The position numbers were made by a program, and so were the translations under genes. A stretch of 64,000 nt of DNA from Favolaschia claudopus (taxonomy: Eukaryota; Basidiomycota; Agaricomycetes; Agaricales; Mycenaceae), in NCBI GenBank assembly GCA_037176885.1, contig JAWWNJ010000186.1, forward strand, positions 62,001 through 126,000, read 5' to 3'. Under the pieces are notes generated by a model that was given only the letters and a program-made list of their open reading frames with translations, was not told where the DNA came from and searched no databases. This document shows, in pieces, positions 11,912-25,890 of this stretch (the stretch's first letter is position 1; every line of letters begins with the position of its first letter).

Positions 11912-12215
11912 CGAGGGTCTAGCGAGGGAGAATCCAAAGTTAATTAAGAAGCTACTAAGAATACATCACAGCGCACCTAGCGAGGGAGAATCCAAAGAGA
12001 AGAAAGGCTGAGGATTCCCACGCTAGGTGCAGTAAACATATAGTAACTAGTTCCCACAAGCTCGGAGCGATCGGCAATGATCCCGGGCCAAGTCACATGC
12101 CTTACTCCACGATGACATAGGGCTTTGGGGATTTGACAGGAAAGTGGGAAATCTGCAAGAGGCCTGCGTCATAGGTGGCTGTGTAGTGCCAAAAGGGGGA
12201 GTTCCCCTGACATCA
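11912..12215 (-). mobile_element. LTR-like segment of a gypsy element
   Basis: The minus strand starts TGATGTCAGGGGAACTCC at 12215, just after the chromodomain coding region. Its 3' half holds a 19-bp direct repeat (CTAGCGAGGGAGAATCC at 11919 and 11978 on the plus strand). An inverted pair GCACCTAGCG / CGCTAGGTGC bounds about 11975-12030. The 3' boundary next to the KH-domain ORF is unclear. Confidence 0.5.
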
Positions 12216-13960
12216 TCCCCCCCTTGGAATGCGGCGCCTCGACGCATAGATCGCACCTGAGCTGGAGTTGACGAGCGGTCACGGAAGGGAAGGGAATCGA
12301 AGGCAGCAACAGCAATGGAGCGAGGTTTGGAAGGGTATTTGCGGTAGAAAGCAGCGACAGCGTCCGGGGCAAAGACATTAGAGTGCTTCACCCATTGATC
12401 ATGGGACGGGTCATAACCCTTCCAGCGAACAAAGTACCATAGACTCCCATAGCGGATCTTGGCATCCAATATCTCCTCGACCTCCCATTGCTTGTCGCCA
12501 GGAACGTCAAGGACTGGTGGCGGCTCTTCGTGTCTAGGGCGAGTGGGGAATGGATCGGCTTCCCCAAGCTGAAGTTTCACGACGGGGAAGACAGGGTGGA
12601 GGGCAGAGTACCGGGGCGGCAGCTCCAGTTTGAAGGCACCATTACCGACGACCTTCAGAACCTTGAAGGGGCCGATACGCCGGTGGGAGAATTTCACCGA
12701 AGGGCGGGTGGTGCGGATATCTGAAGCATCAACCCACACCCGGTCAACAACCTTGATGTCTGGAGCTGGTGTCCGCCGGCGGTCATAGTACTGCTTGTAC
12801 TCTGCCTTGGCCTTGACGAGTGCCGCCTTCGCCTCGGAAACCCCTGACGCAATCCGATCGTGGAACTCGTTTACAGCCTCTAACCTAGAACGTGCAGCGT
12901 GGGGCTCAAAGCCCATCCGTGGAAGCCGACCAGTGTCCGTCATGAACGGTACCTGCTGCGTGGAGGAGTGCATGTGGTTGTTGTACGCAAACTCCGCTGC
13001 AGGCAGCAGCTCATCCCAGTCGTCCTGCTTGTAATTGGTGAAGAGCCGGACGTACTGCTCGAGTTCCTGGTTAACGCGCTCCGTTTGGCCATCGGTCTGC
13101 GGATGGTAGGCCGTAGAAGTGGCTGGGGTGACCCCAACGAGGCGCCAAAGCTCGCGCGTGAACTCTGCAATGAACTGGGTGCCACGATCCGAAATGTACT
13201 TCTCCGGCAGGCCATGGTGGCGCCAGACGTTCCGGTAGTACAGCCGAGCAGCGCCAACCGCGTCAATGGTGGTGTGACACTCCATGAAGTGCGCTCTCTT
13301 CCCAAGGGCACAGACAACGACCATGACTGCATCGTACCCATGGGCCTCCGGAAGCTCGACAATGAAGTCGACTGAGACGGTGTGCCAGCGCTCCTCGGGG
13401 ACCTCTGTGGGGTGGAGCTCACCAATCGGCAGTCTACGAAGCGCCTTGGTGCGGCAGCACAAGTCACAAGTCGCAACGTACCGGCCGACATGGCGCGACA
13501 GTTGGGGCCACCAGTAGTTCCGAGACACGAGCTCCAGAGTCTTGAAACGACCGGCATGGCCTGCAACGCGCGTGTCATGGTGTTGCTCCAGGATGCGTCG
13601 GCGGAGGTCCTTGTCTCGGGGGACGACAACCTTCCCCCGGAAGTAAAGGAGTCCACCTTCAATACGCCATTCCGAAGACCGGGCAGACCGCACACCTCGG
13701 GCCTTGAGGAGTTCCTTGGCAGTCAGGGCAATGGGCTCTTCAAGGTCGGGTTCCCCGGCAAGCGCATCACGAATGTCGCGCAAGAGGGGAGCCTCAGGGC
13801 CAGCAATAACCAGGGCTTCGGTGGCCCGAACGTGGAACAGCTCGGGTCGAAGCAGGGTAACGTCCTGGTTATCGTCCTGCACCCCATGGTCCGGTCTCCG
13901 AGAATCAAAATTCCGCGAAAGATCGGCTCGTTTGAGTTCATTAGAAACCGAATCGGTCCA
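12047..13960 (-). pseudogene. Ty3/gypsy chromovirus integrase with chromodomain, 5'-truncated
   Basis: The frame opens after a stop near 13965 and reads the end of the RNase H/tether region ([14 protein letters not shown]). Numbering from the valine (GTG) at 13882, an HHCC zinc-binding domain follows: H102, H109, C139, C142. The rve catalytic core has D172 (SVDFIVELP), D232 (SDRGTQF) and E268 (DGQTERVNQ). A GPF/Y-like module (RRIGPFKVL, about 401-409) precedes a C-terminal chromodomain (about 467-512, EVEEILDAK to [16 protein letters not shown]). The chromodomain normally guides insertion to modified histones. The last 55 residues are read from the LTR. Reverse transcriptase and protease are missing upstream, so the copy cannot move by itself, though the integrase frame is intact. 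Confidence 0.9.
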
Positions 13961-16530: not shown

Positions 16531-19500
16531 TTACCAGTCTGCCTGCTGACATGGTACATTAGGCCTATTTAGGTTCCTTCCCATGCAGCTTCTATCTGAG
16601 CCAGGCTTCCCACAGTCTCGGCACTTGTTGGTACAGTCTGTCCACCCCCGTTTCCCTTTGCAAGTTGGTATCCCACATTTGCGACACGTTCGAGTCTTAC
16701 GTGGTTTGGTTTCCGGTTTCGGAGGTAGGTGAGCTTTGACACGATTGCTGGCTAACTGTTGCAGTATCGATGATTGTGAAGGTTCTGCTGGCGCTGTATG
16801 CAAAGCTGATGAGCTTGAGCCTGCAGTAAACACCGTGGACGCAATCATCGATGCTGTAGCAGAACCGGATGAAACTCCAAAGTCCGACATTGGTGCTGTG
16901 ATTGAAGGATCAGGCAAAGCACTGGGCTCGTCCAAGGGAGCGCTGAGTGGATCTTCAAGTATTGGAAGCATGCCGCTAGGAGCAGTATGAAGCGCGAGTT
17001 GCGTGGCCGGGACTTTCGGCGCAGCTGAAAGTCGCTGGGGAGCCTGTAATCGGGCTCTCACTTGTGCGCGAGCCTCTGCGGTGAGGGCTAATGATTGTTT
17101 GATGTTTGTATTTGTCTTCCAATTGCCATTGAAGTATGCTTTCAGATGTTCTGCCAGCTTTACCAAGTTAGATCATTTGTTTGCGCAGGTAATGCATGAG
17201 ACCAAATCATACCTTATAGAAAATATTCTTCGTTTGGTCAGCGTGCGAGTTCCAGCGCTGAAGCAGCCTCAAGATGCCAGCTGGTGTCGAAAAACAACTC
17301 GGGTCCGCCGCAATCAAGTCTCGGAACAGCAACTTCTCTGCTATCGTCGACAGCATGAGTACCGGCTTCCGTGTGCCCTGTAACTCAGCAAGATATCCAT
17401 GCAGCTGTTTCAAGTGGAGTGATTTCTCGAATTGCGCCATGCCGGCTTCAACGCGAATTTCTTCGGGAATTGGAAGCACGCCCGCAACCTCGTTTGTCGG
17501 TTCGTAGAGGTTGCCGTTGATCCAGCCTGTCAATAGAATAGGATTGACGAGACAATCTTCGAGGGATGAAAGGAGTTCTTGTATCTCATTGGTAAGCCAG
17601 ATGCTGTAGTGACCTTTGTAGCGTTTCCCCGTTGAGTTGAATGTACCAACCTGAAGTTTCATGCGAGTTAGTTTGCAAAGGCTTGAAAGGCTGATATAAA
17701 CATACGAGGTAATTATGCCGTGCTATGAAGTCTTTCAGGCAGGCATTCGAATGGTGAACGTAGGAAGGCGAGAACGAGGGTGTGTGTGAACGCCACCTTC
17801 AGTAAAATTGGTTCCACGCCGGTTCTGATAGAGCATAAGACCCCACTTGTCATACCCCAACTCAACGTGGAGAGGGATTCCGGGCGGATCCAATAAATAT
17901 CCTTTTGCGATGAGCTCAAGGATGTTTTTAGCGACAATCCAGGCTGCGTGATTGAATAGTGGAAGCCCCGTAGTAGCATCTTTCAGCGGCCCGAAGATGC
18001 GGAATACTTCAGCGACATCACCGTGAAGCTGCTCTGGAGGAGGAATGATGCGTCTGCAGCGACGGAGAACCCACTTCGGACGCTTCCGCAACATTTCCTC
18101 CCATTTCTGAGGCGGGTCTTGGCGCTGCCCCCAAGCGATGATACGAGCCTTGTCTTCAGCGTCTGGAATGAATATCGCGTCCCGTAGAGCCCGCGCAAAT
18201 TCGATCCGGAGCCCGTGGAGAACTGAAATGTAGAACATATTGAAACGCATCTTTAAGGACCCGGCTGCGGATACAGGTGAGCCAGACGATGGCTTGTCTG
18301 GCTGCAGTGGCAAGTGTTCTTTGACCCTGCTGCTGACTCTCCGCATCAGCTTCATATGCCTCGAGCGTAGCTCGACTTTGAGGGATCACAGCACCAGTCT
18401 CTTCGCGCAGGAGAGCTCCGAATCCTGAAGGATCCAACTCAATATCAGCTTCAGGAGTTGTATCTGCGTCTACGGCGAGTGATCCTGTGATTGTCGTAAT
18501 ATTGCTTGGCTCCGCGGGTGCGGCAGTCGGGTTTGAAAGCGAGGGTGAGCGGGGAGGAGGTGCTGAAGAACTGGCTGCTGGGAGGTTTAATGCTGGGGCT
18601 AGACGGAGGTGGCTTCGAAGACAGACAGCAGTGAATGGAAGAGAACCGAATGAAGCCAAAGACTGCTTGTGTAATTTGAGGATAGCTCCTGGAACGACGA
18701 TTTCCGAAATTTGTACGACACATCGGCTTGGTGAGATATTGATGATTTCTTTTGTTTTATCGCGGCGGAACCTTCCTGTATCAAATAGACCATCCAGGCG
18801 ATTGATAGCGCCTCGGGCAATTAGACGAGTACGATCGTCGTTGAAAATCCAGACCGGTGTTCCGATCTCAACTGACTTCGGAAGGAGGGCAGGAACCGGA
18901 ATTGGAGAGAGGAGGCCATAGATGCGAGAGCATGCATAGACATCAAGAGCCGCATAGCGAACCTGCTCTGGTGACAACTCCTCATTAATACCATGCAGAG
19001 CTCAGCCGCTCAGAGACATTCTTGTTCAACCTCTTTCCGAGCGTAACGGCGCACAACTCGGCCAGCCCGACTCTAGCATCCCGTACAACGAGCCGATCCT
19101 TGGCCATTTTGGCTAGATCAACAGCGCCAACAAATGGTCGGGTTGGGTGCGTTGCCTGCTCTGTACTTCAAATCCCCTGCTACCGCGCGACCAGCCTTCA
19201 AAATCCGGGGATTCTCAAGTACCTGTGTCAAAACCGACGGAATGCGACCCGCAGCGAGCATCAGACCAAGCTACAAATTGAATGAGAATCAAAAAGAATT
19301 CCGGCATGTAAATTTCCGTACCTGTATAATGTAAATCATATTCTTATATGCAATCTGGAGGACAGCAGTCTGCCCACGACCGGTAACAAATCCACGCTGA
19401 GAAACTTCGACATTCCACTCTGCGTCGATGAATATAATGATCTTATAGCTGGTAAGGTCGTCAGGGAGATCTTGTAGAATGGCGCGCATTGCTTCATCGG

Positions 19501-19990
19501 TGTCCTTTGCGAATTTGGGAATAAATGTCGTGATATTTGACGGAATTTCAAGTGCAGGAAGGTGTGAGTACTTTTCCACTGGTTCGATACCCTCGCGCAA
19601 GGAAGGGAAACAGCGCTCCAAAAAATCCTTGTCAGCCATGTTGTCGGTATAACATATGGCGGGCTGCTCGTGGCCGTAGCGCTCGAGGGAGGCCCTCATC
19701 CATGTAAGAGCGAGTTCGAACTGGGAATGTGACTTGGTGGCAACTAAATTGCAGACTCGAATCTCGCCTTTCTCATTGATTACTGTCAGGAGAGCCACAA
19801 AGATTTGTTCGCCGTTGACCTTGGCAATATGTTTATACAGGTAATAAGGTACAGAACATCTTGTTCAAATAGAACACACATACCTTGAAACTATGGTCGA
19901 TTCCGTTGATGTACCCTGACAACATCGACATAGACTCGACACCAGTCGATATTGACAGGCACTGTAGTCAGAGCACGTCAATAACGACTG
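16531..19990 (-). pseudogene. DDE transposase fused to a 3'-5' exonuclease, 3' portion (decayed)
   Basis: Order on the minus strand: a transposase-like core (GYINGIDHSFK, a 64-nt intron at 19883-19820, then VALLTVINEKGEIRV and YTDNMADKDFLE with the TD motif); a DnaQ/WRN-type exonuclease domain with Exo I motif FIDAEWN, a 51-nt intron at 19321-19271 and Exo III motif QVRYAALDVYA; a Ser/Pro/Ala linker; a helical block (NMFYISVLHGLRIEF, PPPEQLHG); TEGGVHTHPRSRLPT; VGTFNSTGKRYKGHYSIWL; and a cysteine-rich C-terminus (CRKCGIPTCKGK, CRDCGKPG) with stop at 16531. From memory this matches a dispersed Agaricomycete family with an RNase H-fold domain plus exonuclease. About four frameshifts (near 19150, 18990, 18247, 17752) break it. 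Its 5' part lies beyond the element at 19998-25064. Confidence 0.75.
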
Positions 19991-19997
19991 GAGCTTA

Positions 19998-20160
19998 ATC
20001 ACCGGTAGCTAAGGCGGAACAGATTTTCTCCCACGCTTTTCAAAAATTTCGCTAGCGTCTTGTAAAAGTTTTTTGTATCGGAATTCTGAATAGACAGTTT
20101 TGTAGCGCAAGGAATTCTAAGACTTTGGACGTGCTCGGATTTTTTTAACTCAAAAAACTC
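19998..20160 (+). repeat. left TIR of the 5-kb element
   Basis: About 163 bp, roughly 90 percent alike to the right TIR in reverse complement by eye. The main difference is a 12-nt gap after GCTTTTCAAA. Confidence 0.85.
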
Positions 20161-20235
20161 GTCTCATAATTTGCATTTTACTTTTGCATACCAAATAGGA
20201 GACCACAAGCATTTGTCCCCGCCCCACCACTCGAC

Positions 20236-22193
20236 ATGGTATTCAAGCGTACCCGTCCCGACTCGGACTACGATGAGGACTTTGTACCACCTCCCCCGCG
20301 AAAAAAGAGGGCCCTCAGCTTGCCCCCCAGCTCTCCGCCGCCCATGATATCCTCAGATTCGGAGTCTGATACAGACTTCGAACCACCGCTTGTCAAAAAA
20401 CAGCCCATATTCACTCCCGAAGACGAAAGTACAATGGAAAATTTGGATTCTCTCCCCCGTCTACCTCCTCTCTTTCCCCTACCACTACCCATTATTGGTA
20501 GGGATGGTCAGCTATCCGAGCCTCACACCCCTCGGCGCATTCGTGCTGGATCTCTTGACCCACCCTCGTCGTCTTCGGGCAACTGTGCGGAAATTAAGTT
20601 CCAGTCAGCGGAGCCCCGACAAGCAAAAAGTTACCATGGCTTCCAAGGAATTGAAGAGGAAAGAAGCGAATCTGGCGGCCGCAAAGCAGCAAATGGCAGA
20701 TCTCGCAGCTGAGGCAGCGAGGAAGGCTGCGGCGGAGGCAGCAAAGGCAGCGGCAGCGGAGAAGTCAGCTGCTGATGCAGCAGACACCCGAAGAGCGCAG
20801 GATGTTGTCAGGCGTATCATAACGCCCGCAGCGGAAGGTGGATTCAATTTTAAAAACATGGACCACTTCTTCGATGCAATGTGGCGAAAGGGCGGAGATG
20901 GAGAAGTCTCACTTTTGCTCACCAACCACGTAAAGCGCCATGGTGTCCAGCATGCAAGGGCCATGTTTGAGCGGTCGGCGCAAGCCAAGGATAAGTATAT
21001 CTCATCAGAAATGGCGGAGATTTACGAGCGGGAGGGGCGTGCTATCCAAACATTATTAACAAGACAATCTACGACAACGGTTACGGAGCTTTTGGAAGAT
21101 TTTTCGATGGAAGAGCTCGCTGCGGAAATTCAAGAGAAGGCCCCTAACTTGTGGGCTGCTCTCAGCTGACAGACTCCCTGAAAGAAAAGGTAAAGACTTC
21201 CCATGCTCGAGCGGACCACTCACTCATGATCGCATGCAGATCGAATCCGCGCGTCGCAATAGTACCGGCCCAATTGCGGGAATGAAGGCCTCCGTCCGCC
21301 GCTGGGGTCTATTTCACGCTCAAATGGCGGGCTGTCGATTGACCATCAATGAGCATTGGGGTGCGCCGAATTCTTTGTGGTCCAGAGGACTGTGGTGGGA
21401 GCACAATAAGCTGCTGAAACGAAAGTCATTGGACGGCTTCAGGATGTATTGTGGTGCTGAGGACTTGTCAGAATGGGTGAAATCGGCAACGTATGCTGAA
21501 TTTGAGGCCGTGGCGAGGACTGTCTTCGACAAACTGTTTTCTAGTGCGGCAGTCAATGCACTTCGGGCACAGGAGAAACGCGACATCACCCTGGAAAACA
21601 CAATTCTTTTCAATCGCGACGCACTGTTTTACATTGAGTACACCCGTGCAATCAAGAAGGGTGACATTGGGCGGGTTCTTAACGTCTTGGCAATCTGGAT
21701 GGTCATGATGAGGGCGCCAAAGACCATGCCTCGTTATGCGGACGCAATATTCGAGACGCTCGTGAGAATCAAGAAATTCCCTCCAAAGCTCCGGCAAGTT
21801 GTTTTACGCTGCGACTTGACGCTAACTGACAAAAGCATCAGCGAGCTATATCTCATGAATTGGCTGGTAAATCTCACTGGCAAGCTTCTGGGTTTCAAAC
21901 CCGTCGATCTCCTCCAAGAGCACCAGAATTTCTGGGCCAAGATCATCTATAACGCTAAAGGCTCGAACAAAAGCTGGAAACCACACAAGCAGGGACCAGA
22001 AGGAGTGGGAGAGGGTGATGAAGAGGAAGAAAGCGGCGGCGAAGACGAGGAAGACATCGACGAGTATGATCCAACTGAGGAGGACTTACGAGTCGATGAT
22101 GAAGAGTTCTTGCTGGAGCCGACAGAGATCTTGGCGTCAGCGAAGGAGATGGTAGATGGAGCATTGAGCGACTCTGATGTAGAGGACGAATAA
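20236..22193 (+). pseudogene. DUF6589-like transposase, internally deleted
   Basis: The start at 20236 (MVFKRTRPDS) gives a Pro/Ser/Asp-rich N-terminus. A frame change near 20590 leads to a coiled Ala/Lys/Glu region, then DHFFDAMWRKGG, RHGVQHARA and EDFSMEELAAEIQEKAPNLW (to 21167). After a non-coding gap with a GT-AG-like stretch, a second frame (21234-22193) begins just before RRWGLFHAQMAGCR and reads NEHWGAPNS, WWEHNKLLKRK, MVMMRAPKTMPRYADA, NWLVNLTG, DLLQEHQNFW and AKGSN, with an acidic tail. These blocks match the DUF6589 family of mushroom genomes as I remember it. In that family several hundred residues separate the two halves and more lie between LLKRK and LDGFR. Both stretches seem lost here. 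Confidence 0.65.
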
Positions 22194-22199
22194 ATATCG

Positions 22200-22659
22200 T
22201 TATTGCAGAGCTAATAAGGTTTCTACAGGCGGCGGCGATGGTGCCGTTGCCGCGGACGGAAGTATATCTAAATCACAATGAATGTCAGCGGACTCGGCTA
22301 TATGCACAAATCCTGATTATACCTAACAACTCGTCATATCCCGGGAGCCTGTGTTCAGCGCTGAGTGCATATAGTTTTGAATCTAGCACTCTCTGCAGAT
22401 AGACCGCGTCCTCATACACCTGTGATCCCTCGACATTGAATTGACGGGCGTTGTCGAACATGAGATGCCAGTCCTTCTGATATTGCTTGATGCTTGTATA
22501 GTGAGTAGGTTTCTCGGACAGAGTCTTGATATTCGACATCGAAATAGGTTCTTTGATTATATCGTAGTATCCGGGCCACACCTGCTGCAATTCAGGGACA
22601 ACCTTCAAGGATACAAAAGGCTCACATTGCGGCGGGGGAGCTTGAGAAATATCTGACAT
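22200..22659 (-). CDS. bromodomain exons (end of the RecQ gene or separate small gene)
   Basis: Motifs: GYYDIIKEPISMSNIK (ZA loop), YTSIKQYQKDWHLMFDNAR (helix B) and QFNVEGSQVYEDA, which includes the acetyl-lysine-binding Asn of FN. Then QRVLDSKLYALSAEHR. The domain most resembles SNF2/RSC-type bromodomains. Splicing out 22693-22653 fuses it in frame to the helicase. Alternatively the ATG at 22659 (MSDISQAPPP) starts an independent protein. The last exon adds ATAPSPPPVETLLALQ and a stop. Confidence 0.75.
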
Positions 22660-24840
22660 CGTCGTCGAGGTTCCCTATTCTTTTTGCGCTTACGACCGGG
22701 AGCGATAGTGTCATCGGGGTACTCCAGCTCTGAAACGACTGCATCATAGCATCCCTCGAAGACGAGGAGTAGACGAGAGCGCAGCTCTTTGAATTCAGCA
22801 GCCTGGAGAGTCCTCTGAGCTTTTGCAGCTGCTTGAGCTTCACGCTCGGCAGCAGCGTGGTCCGGAAAGTCGACAAGAACTTCTTGAAGCGCCGTGACAA
22901 CTTGATTTCCATATTTCGAAGCATGAACCCAATGAGTATGTTGCCGCAGAGTATCGAGAGAGGTGAGAAGTCGTGCTCGCTTTGCCAGCACATCGAGGAT
23001 GTCGTCAGAAAGGATCGCGTTGCCGGTGAGAAAGTGTTGATCAGGAAAGGCCGCGGCAATGATCTCTTCGCGCAAGTTGTTCAACCTCTTTCTCGCCGCT
23101 TCCTCGAGCTCCGGAGAGCTCAAACCCTTCCGTTCTATCCTCAGTTTTCGCTCGCCAAGCATTGAGATTGTGGGTACTGGGAATGCCTCGGGGTTACAAT
23201 TTTCGCAGCATGGACCTGGGGGGAAAGGTAGATTCAACCGTTCTGCACAACACTGTGTCAGTATTCAATCGCGACAATCCAAATGACTTACGTTTGTTAC
23301 GATTTCCAAAATATCTGTTCCACACGCGGCGTCGGCATTCAGTTGTGGTGCTGAACTCAAGAAGATATCGCTGATCTCTTTCTTCCATCGACGACAACAC
23401 CTTTTGTTTAACTTTTGTCTTGCGGCGTTTGGCAATGACAGGCTCTTCCTCCTCGTCTGATGAATCCTGAAGTTCAAGCGCAGCCTCGCGGTCCAGCGGT
23501 TGATCAGCATTCTCGTCGTCTTCAGAAACCTCATCGTCTTTGGCAGCTGCTTCTTTTTCGGCCTTCAAGATCTCCAGTTCCGCGCAGCATCGCGTGTACA
23601 TGGCCTTTGTGATGTATAAAACAGCTTCGCCTCGCTTTGTTGGGTCCCGCACACATCGTCCAATTTTTTGAACAGTTGAAAGAAATGATCGCGGCCTCTT
23701 CCAAAGATACAGTCGCATAATGGTTCGGAAATCCATTCCCTGATTAAGTGAGTCTTCTCACTGACGGTGATGCATCGGCAACTCACAATTCCTAATGCAT
23801 CTGTAGCAGAAACACCGCGAAGAGCACCACTTTAGATCCTCTCTTGGATGCTTTGCTTTTCTTCCTCGTCAATGGTGCGATGGTAAAATTCAAATGACTT
23901 TTCTTCAAGGCAGGGCGGCCGGTTGTCTCGAAGGAAATCCTGTATTTTCTCGACCTCCTGCCTCTCATTTCCATAGAGTAGGCTCTGGGGGAAGTCCTGC
24001 GGGCCTTCCATGTCGTCCGGGAAAAGTACGACAAGATCGGCATATGAATCCGGCTCGTGCTGCATGATTCGGACAGCGAGGAAGACGTTCAACTTGTCGT
24101 TGGAGACCTCCACTCGCGCGCAATCTCCCGGCAGACTGAGATTGGCAAGAACATCTTTCACGACATGGTACGGGATCGTCGCAGATGCACCGAGGATGGG
24201 GAGTTTTGCCGGTAAGCGCGCTGCCAAGTGCACAAGTTGTCGATATTCTGGACGGAAGTCTTCGTCTCCCCATTCCAATATGCAATGGAGCTCGTCTATA
24301 AAGGGATATGATGTTCTTGGTGAATTCAATTTGATTCAACACTTTCTCATGGAACTGAGTGCTCAACACCATTTCCGGCCCAACAAGACCAACCCGATAC
24401 TTGTTTTTGCCCAATTTCTGCAAGAGGGTAACGATTAATATTACACTAATCAACAGTGCATCTATATCGTGCCTTACCGTCAACTCCTGGTCAAGATTCG
24501 GACTGTTTCCGGTGATTGCTACTGCGGGTATTCCCTTTTCATTCAATGTCTTTGCTTGCTCCTCAAGGAGCGCGACAAGGGGCCCTACAACGAGGACTAT
24601 CTTCTGGCAGTCCTTGTCGATGTTTCCCGGCCACCAGTGGTAAAAGAGAGGGTACCAGAAAGCCAGAGTTTTGCCGCCACCAGTTGGGACATCCAAGATT
24701 GTGCTAATGCCTTTGAGGATGTTCTGGCCGGCTTCCACCTGATGTGGGTAGAGTTCATCGACGCCGAATACCTCACAGAGCCTCTGGGCGGCGAGCTTGA
24801 GCTTCTCGGGGTCGGGCGATGCGACGCCAGTGAAAGGCAT
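22200..24840 (-). pseudogene. RecQ-family helicase with C-terminal bromodomain exons
   Basis: Starts MPFTGVASPD at 24840. Q-motif region YPHQVEAGQNIL; Walker A DVPTGGGKTL (K57); a 60-nt intron at 24477-24418; motif II DELHC; motif III GASAT; a 47-nt intron at 23786-23740 within the motif V region (DALGI|GMDF); motif VI QKIGRCVRD; a 49-nt intron at 23291-23243; a zinc-site remnant CCENCN; a long coiled region. A 41-nt intron at 22693-22653 joins a bromodomain exon, and a 55-nt intron (22322-22268) precedes the stop at 22200. RecQ enzymes unwind DNA 3'-5' in repair and recombination. Two lesions are visible: a one-base frameshift just before DELHC (near 24300) and an in-frame TAA at 23832-23834. 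This copy is therefore probably dead, though all introns keep their splice signals. Confidence 0.8.
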
Positions 24841-24896
24841 GCTTTACCCCTATATCACCATCATCATCATAGATTCATTCATAGCGAGCGCAATTT

Positions 24897-25064
24897 TTCG
24901 AGTTAAAAAAATCTGAGCACGTCCGAAGTCTTAGAATCTCTGGCGCTACAGAACTGTCTATTCGGAATGTCGATACAAAAAACTTTTACAAGACGCTAGC
25001 GAAATTTTGACGAAGTCTTTGAAAAGCGTGGGAGAAAATCTGTTCCGCCTTAGCTACCGGTGAT
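24897..25064 (-). repeat. right TIR of the 5-kb element
   Basis: About 168 bp, inverted relative to 19998-20160 and ending CTACCGGTGAT before the TTA duplication. Confidence 0.85.
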
Positions 25065-25890
25065 TTAGCACCAGTCCCTTCGGTGATTGATCAAACGACT
25101 GTCTTTGAGAATTTACACCGTGGACTGGTTCGAGTCTAACATCGACATAGCCTGATCAAAAGAAGGACCATGAACTTCCATAAATGAGTCGAACAAGTCG
25201 CGTAGCCACTGCGAACTTGGAACGAAGCCAGGATAGCCGCTCGACGAGGGAACCGATGACCTGACGTCCTACGGTTAACCTTATGCAGTTTCGTCTTGCT
25301 TTCTCGATCGGGATGATTACAATCCAATATTGGACTTGGAAACAACACTCTACACAATCGTTGAATGTACTGTACTTGTTCATATCTCCAACGCGGAGAA
25401 TGCACTCATGTAGGTACGCCCAGACTACTTGACCGCCCAACAGCGCACCCTTTTGCGGTCCCCACCGGATGATATTGACGGTGCTGTTTAATCATCCGCC
25501 TGACGCCCTCTTGTGCCCCTGGTCCAGATAACCGTTCGTTGACGGTGGGAAACCCTTCCGAAGATCTCCTGCATCGCTTCAAGCAAGCTATACCATGCAA
25601 AGATGGCTCAGCTTTGCTAAAGGTCATGAATCAGATCTATCGCGTTCTTCGTCGGCTCAAGTACCCCCCAATACCACGAGTGGACATTCACATATACTGG
25701 TGCAATCGACGTCCGCATGGACAGAGAGGGGAATTCCAATGCCGGTGCTGATGCATACTCTTGACCAGAATTATCAGCGGAGCGTGGGTCCTCACGTTCA
25801 GATGCTGTCTAAGGACTGCAAGCCATTTTCGGCTGACACTTACGGAGAGCTCATGCCACCCCTCGTGCACACGATCCTATCTATAATAAA
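25065..25890 (-). pseudogene. 5' portion of the split DDE-exonuclease gene
   Basis: Minus-strand frames are broken but ordered as in the family: GGQVVWAYLHECILR, MNKYSTFNDCVEC, then WLRDLFDSFMEVHGPSFDQ and AMSMLDSNQST ending at a GT-type donor near 25126. Removing the 5,067-bp element and one TTA gives an intron running from this donor to a CTACAG acceptor at about 19965. Translation then continues with CLSISTG and the 19.9-kb exon. Several frame breaks and stops upstream show decay. The true start was not found. Confidence 0.55.

Follow-up and report, generated by a model that had tools for sequence, protein, structure and literature searches.

A 2020 study by Kojima is said, in papers that cite it, to treat the Academ and AcademH group of DNA transposons. 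In the published passages that we draw on for comparison, a RecQ helicase is described in Academ transposons as early as 2013 (PMC3627910), AcademH elements make target-site duplications of 9 or 10 bp and duplication length in Academ lineages is suggested to go with the kind of accessory enzyme, a helicase or a nuclease (PMC10045372), AcademH copy numbers are given as low in Basidiomycota, Ascomycota and Mucoromycota (PMC10799480), and the RecQ-bearing KolobokH elements are found only in fungi (PMC9587614). Here we compare with these systems a 5,208-bp element of the mushroom Favolaschia claudopus (family Mycenaceae), which lies at 19931-25138 of a 64,000-nucleotide stretch (the window, G000:C186:62001-126000; assembly G000 has 264.6 Mb in 460 contigs) and carries a gene of the Pfam family DUF6589 and a gene for a RecQ-type helicase with a bromodomain. 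The best explanation of the locus is probably an AcademH-like cut-and-paste transposon that pairs a DUF6589 transposase with a RecQ-bromodomain protein, present here as a decayed, non-autonomous copy.

The element begins with TAGACTCGA and ends with TCGAGTCTA, and the sequence ACATCGACA stands on both sides of it as a 9-bp target-site duplication, with identical copies at 19922-19930 and 25139-25147. Comparison of inverted repeats and flanks places the left terminal inverted repeat (TIR) at 19931-20157 (+), where an outer 67 bp from TAGACTCGA is followed by the "ATCACCGG" core, and inverted-repeat comparison places the right TIR, closing with TCGAGTCTA, at 24894-25138 (-). The repeats match at 94% between 19986-20051 and 25011-25076 and at 91% between 20043-20157 and 24894-25008; a gapped alignment shows them as well. 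The first-pass annotation of this DNA had seen these repeats, which are real, but had placed the ends at the ATCACCGG core, 67 bp (left) and 74 bp (right) inside the true ones. An element of that extent would be 5,067 bp long, with TTA duplications of 3 bp, and would be PIF/Harbinger-like or a new class. When the 200 bp to the left of that edge are searched in the same genome, 25 matches appear, 3 full and 22 partial; the partial ones are confined to the innermost 55-75 bp and stop at the edge or at most 4 bases from it, and 17 of them adjoin a TIR core (15 from one core listing and 2 from another), the other five (two on C250, one on C50, two on C20) being outside those core lists. The search with the 165-bp core repeat scored 40 places among 69 candidates in this genome. 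Since the 67 bp outside the proposed left edge recur at many loci, that edge must be internal.

In favor of a TTA duplication, TTA does flank the ATCACCGG core on both sides in the window copy, L009 and L012-L015 (its complement does so in L010), and the edge trinucleotides agree left and right in the window-like copies and L012-L015. They differ, however, in four miniature inverted-repeat transposable elements (MITEs), being GGA/TAA in L023, L025 and L026 and TGA/TAA in L027, and it is at the outer ends that the 9-bp duplications lie, along with an exact empty site. We thus reject TTA as the target duplication, and the shorter element that it bounded is refuted with next to no doubt. PIF/Harbinger transposons are TIR elements with two genes and a 3-bp TWA duplication; the two-gene layout is alike, the transposase here is DUF6589, and since the TTA is internal no such duplication is present, so this assignment is rejected as well. 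Twelve complete copies were inspected and eight of them are independent, L009 and L010 having been dropped for flanks in common with the window copy and L014 and L015 for flanks in common with L013. The 9-bp duplication is perfect in seven of the eight and matches at 8/9 in L012, and none of 56 mismatched flank pairs used as a control was perfect, the best reaching 6/9.

That the two genes travel together is seen in a 6,489-bp relative at C25:1695357-1701845, whose annotated proteins in F. claudopus are identical to those of this locus. The relative is bounded by TAGACTCGA ends, its ~270-bp TIRs are 74% identical, its 9-bp duplication GTAGCTATC is perfect, and a RecQ-bromodomain gene and a DUF6589 gene converge inside it. 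When its flanks are joined, all 400 bases match C112:266167-266570 at 98%, where GTAGCTATC is present once, an exact empty site; the joined flanks also match C66 over 385 bases at 89%. Both genes thus lie in a 6.5-kb unit with a target duplication and an exact empty site, so DUF6589 and RecQ-bromodomain move as one unit, and the proposal that they form one TIR transposon is upheld. Cut-and-paste DDE/D transposons are marked by TIRs, target duplications and clean empty sites, all of which are seen here. Joined flanks of two MITE copies find only diverged related sites across the junction, that of L023 at 77% over almost all 400 bp (87% over bases 124-399) and that of L026 at 91% over bases 1-261. 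The C111 copy, 92% identical to that on C25, is missing the final bases of its right end, and the TCGAGTCTA right end of the C128 relative (L011 and L037) was not found in the DNA examined around that locus.

In the window, the DUF6589 gene is a remnant at 20236-22193 (+), its putative start being the first ATG of the N-terminal frame. A resemblance to this family had been noted from its letters, and Pfam confirms it (PF20231, E=1e-57, 196 bits against a Pfam cut-off of 27; relatives P0001 and P0306 score 382 and 448 bits). With P0001 as the tblastn query, residues 77-322 align to 20411-21163, 618-879 to 21237-21980 and 1005-1038 to 22071-22166, and residues 323-617 and 880-1004 are missing, as they are from the C250 and C123 copies. 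D445, D609 and E859 of P0001 are candidate catalytic residues; the deletions have therefore removed both candidate aspartates and kept the glutamate.

The structures predicted for DUF6589 proteins of two lineages look like DDE transposases (Hermes and P element) and show the RNase H-like catalytic fold of DDE/D transposons. With Foldseek alone neither model had a match at E<=0.001, and a search of solved structures with a sequence profile of the transposase gave only an unrelated flagellar protein at E=0.37. In a protein search from another DUF6589 lineage, the best 120 of 473 matches were either fungal by name or unnamed. The predicted DDE fold, the TIRs, the fixed 9-bp duplication and the clean empty site together speak for the DUF6589 protein as the agent of cut-and-paste transposition, and we would say that DUF6589 is a transposase, on evidence of mobility in one lineage and of predicted folds in two. 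Many mushroom genomes carry the family as one without an assigned function, with at least 102 places in F. claudopus, and its mobility and predicted folds mean that DUF6589 genes should be masked or re-annotated.

The helicase gene occupies 22285-24840 (-) and is split by introns and frameshifted. Its DEAD domain (Pfam, E=2.8e-12) and the C-terminal bromodomain (PF00439, E=1.8e-13, with own-genome matches to its exon at 22285-22659) agree with the first reading of the gene. With the RecQ protein P0121 as the tblastn query, residues 1-771 align, and the frame changes between 160 and 162, immediately ahead of the DEAH motif (residues 163-166). The RecQ identity comes from Pfam and Protein Data Bank matches of the protein model of the C25 copy and from Pfam and tblastn for the window copy. 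The two genes are convergent, as had been claimed; their stops were put 6 bp apart, which we could not confirm, the unspliced reading frames ending 91 bp apart (22193 and 22285). A bromodomain is annotated in 48 of 88 RecQ relatives in other fungi (P0121-P0208; the other 32 of the best 120 were set aside because they were ordinary helicases, distant ones or ones of low coverage). The C128 relative (at L011, C128:507174-508179) has two bromodomain matches whose starts are 625 bp apart, which suggests an internal duplication.

How regular the pairing is can be judged first within F. claudopus, where 102 DUF6589 places were scored among 601 candidates, with at least 117 matches in them; because scoring covered this part of the candidates, neither the place in the window nor C250 is on the list. 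By the coordinates listed, a relative of this RecQ or bromodomain lies within 8 kb of DUF6589 at six of the 102 places, both domains being present on C111, C25, C280 and C123, the bromodomain on C29 and the helicase on C19; C128 likewise carries DUF6589 and a bromodomain. At seven diverged loci, TAGACTCGA stands upstream of RecQ in five (L049-L053; not in L054 and L055). Two observations weigh against a pairing that holds generally: among the matches listed, the remaining 96 places show no such RecQ or bromodomain partner, and the eight top-scoring DUF6589 loci have, within the DNA examined around them, neither this RecQ (by tblastn) nor these ends. Most of the DUF6589 places being without this RecQ among the matches listed, other transposon families that use DUF6589 are likely.

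In other fungi, 39 of the 88 RecQ relatives are on the same contig as a DUF6589 protein among the matches listed, against 4.7 expected over all contig sizes; on contigs below 500 kb the figures are 20 of 58 and 0.38 (for 100-Mb genomes). The count compares the best 120 RecQ rows, 88 of them kept, with the best 120 DUF6589 proteins, and takes the same species label and a same-sized contig as a proxy for contig identity. The 39 pairs fall under 21 species labels, including Mycena, Gymnopus, Plicaturopsis (order Amylocorticiales) and Schizophyllum. This recurrence bears on whether the helicase might be passenger cargo, a captured host RecQ-bromodomain gene without a role in transposition. MITEs and other DUF6589 lineages do exist without the helicase, and its part in transposition is putative; the recurrence of the pair in those four genera, however, and the near full length kept by the window RecQ while the transposase lost large parts, make us regard mere cargo as unlikely.

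The element is like Academ/AcademH, as described in the passages compared, in its RecQ helicase, its 9-bp duplication within the 9-10 bp range and its presence in Basidiomycota; unlike it, those accounts mention no bromodomain on the helicase. KolobokH and Kolobok-1_CCri also have a DDE transposase and a RecQ in one DNA transposon, and in Kolobok-1_CCri the RecQ is on the complementary strand as in the window element; the Kolobok duplication, however, is given as TTAA and its termini as 5'-RR...YY-3' (PMC9587614), whereas ours is of 9 bp without TTAA and the termini are 5'-TA...TA-3', so Kolobok is rejected. Helitrons are described as having neither TIRs nor target duplications (in the relevant part of PMC4522978) and are rejected in view of the long TIRs and 9-bp duplications. 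An AcademH-like family is therefore our best reading, rather than the new class of helicase-bearing transposon first suggested, by a likeness in duplication length and RecQ as described. RecQ in Academ and KolobokH is already in print, so the pairing as such is not new; the bromodomain fusion and the identity of DUF6589 as a transposase are possibly new, and the literature searches made found in print neither a bromodomain on a transposon RecQ nor DUF6589 linked to a transposase, one paper on a Morchella genome having come up for the bromodomain combination.

If DUF6589 elements do not belong to Academ, they would form a separate superfamily with an independently acquired RecQ, as in KolobokH. 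That DUF6589 is not mentioned in the literature searched, that Kolobok too gained a RecQ (according to the passage in PMC9587614), and that the published passages on helicase-bearing Academ give no sequence for comparison all fit such an origin; the available portions of PMC8290104, PMC12210899, PMC10294476 and PMC9143410 yielded no Academ protein, and those of PMC12730594 and PMC9674265 nothing on Academ. The 9-bp duplication and the RecQ nevertheless both agree with AcademH/Academ as published in the passages cited above, and we doubt that a separate superfamily is the answer, the membership of the DUF6589 element in Academ being putative.

In the AcademH-like transposon that we favor, the DUF6589 protein (with its DDE-like predicted fold in full-frame relatives) would bind the long TIRs with terminal TAGACTCGA, cut the element out and insert it with a stagger of 9 bp, from which the 9-bp duplications would arise. 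The convergently transcribed RecQ-bromodomain helicase would ride along with the transposase and most likely aid the processing or repair of excision or integration intermediates, for example by opening ends, and its bromodomain would tether it to acetylated chromatin or histones. A further step we offer only tentatively, as less likely than not: that the RecQ-bromodomain protein of this Agaricomycetes lineage reads chromatin, and so guides or aids transposition where chromatin is acetylated, and that DUF6589 is a widespread DDE transposase family never linked to its Pfam entry in the transposable element literature. The exact empty site, together with a RecQ-bromodomain partner that recurs, makes an effect of the helicase on duplication length, post-excision repair or chromatin targeting testable.

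The window copy itself is a decayed, non-autonomous relic in which neither gene is intact. It is one of three near-identical copies (with L009 and L010), all with the same duplication; their left flanks agree at 99.3-99.9% over 2,000 bp, and on the right L009 agrees with the window or L010 at 99.6% over 694 bp and a longer window-L010 stretch at 92%. The common flanks and duplication show that the three stem from one insertion later spread by segmental duplication, and independent insertions are rejected. Beyond ~694 bp their right flanks diverge through copy-number changes of ~200-270-bp units. No empty site for the insertion was seen, bases 1-133 of the 200-bp left flank (bar at most 8 beside the repeat) having matched only the three copies.

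This segmental history raises the question of telomere-linked helicases (TLH/Y'), spread by subtelomeric recombination. Those helicases are not known to be bounded by TIRs and duplications, unlike the window element. The three copies are segmentally duplicated and sit 9-82 kb from contig ends, and TLH/Y' genes, like ours, are fungal, multicopy and of RecQ type, subtelomeric RecQ families being known in fungi (PMC4522978, in the passage concerned). The C25 copy, however, lies ~0.4 Mb from the nearer end of its 2,110,570-bp contig with its 9-bp duplication and exact empty site, which refutes such an origin there; it could explain only the later duplication of the window's three copies, and for the RecQ gene as such we hold it to be highly improbable.

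The genome contains 195 occurrences of the end motif TAGACTCGAN{1,3}CCAGTC and 0 of the reversed control. Among 100 of these places that were listed, 62 make 31 facing pairs and 38 are unpaired; 13 of the pairs are shorter than 200 bp, 12 measure 601-624 bp and 5 span 1.2-2.4 kb, while a single pair spans 6,489 bp. In this sample the TAGACTCGA-ended family is mostly gene-less derivatives, 25 of the 31 pairs spanning 78-624 bp, too short for DUF6589 or the helicase. It had been suggested at the outset that TIR-bounded copies regularly lacking the helicase would tell against the element; this is literally the case, but such copies also lack the transposase, as expected for MITEs of a cut-and-paste transposon. 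The 13 smallest pairs, of 78-128 bp, are nearly termini alone (e.g., C12:1611902-1611988 and C23:1236107-1236186). L019, L020, L021 and L024 have an identical 15-bp left flank (atatgtgtgactgcc), which suggests segmental copies or insertion in another repeat.

Outside the 9-bp duplication, to the left of the element, the reading frames at 17735-19798 (-) had no Pfam matches above cut-off; their letters resemble those of a WRN-type 3'-5' exonuclease gene. Farther left, 12047-13882 (-) encodes the integrase part of a chromodomain Ty3/gypsy-like polyprotein, with rve below the Pfam cut-off and Integrase_H2C2 and Chromo above it.

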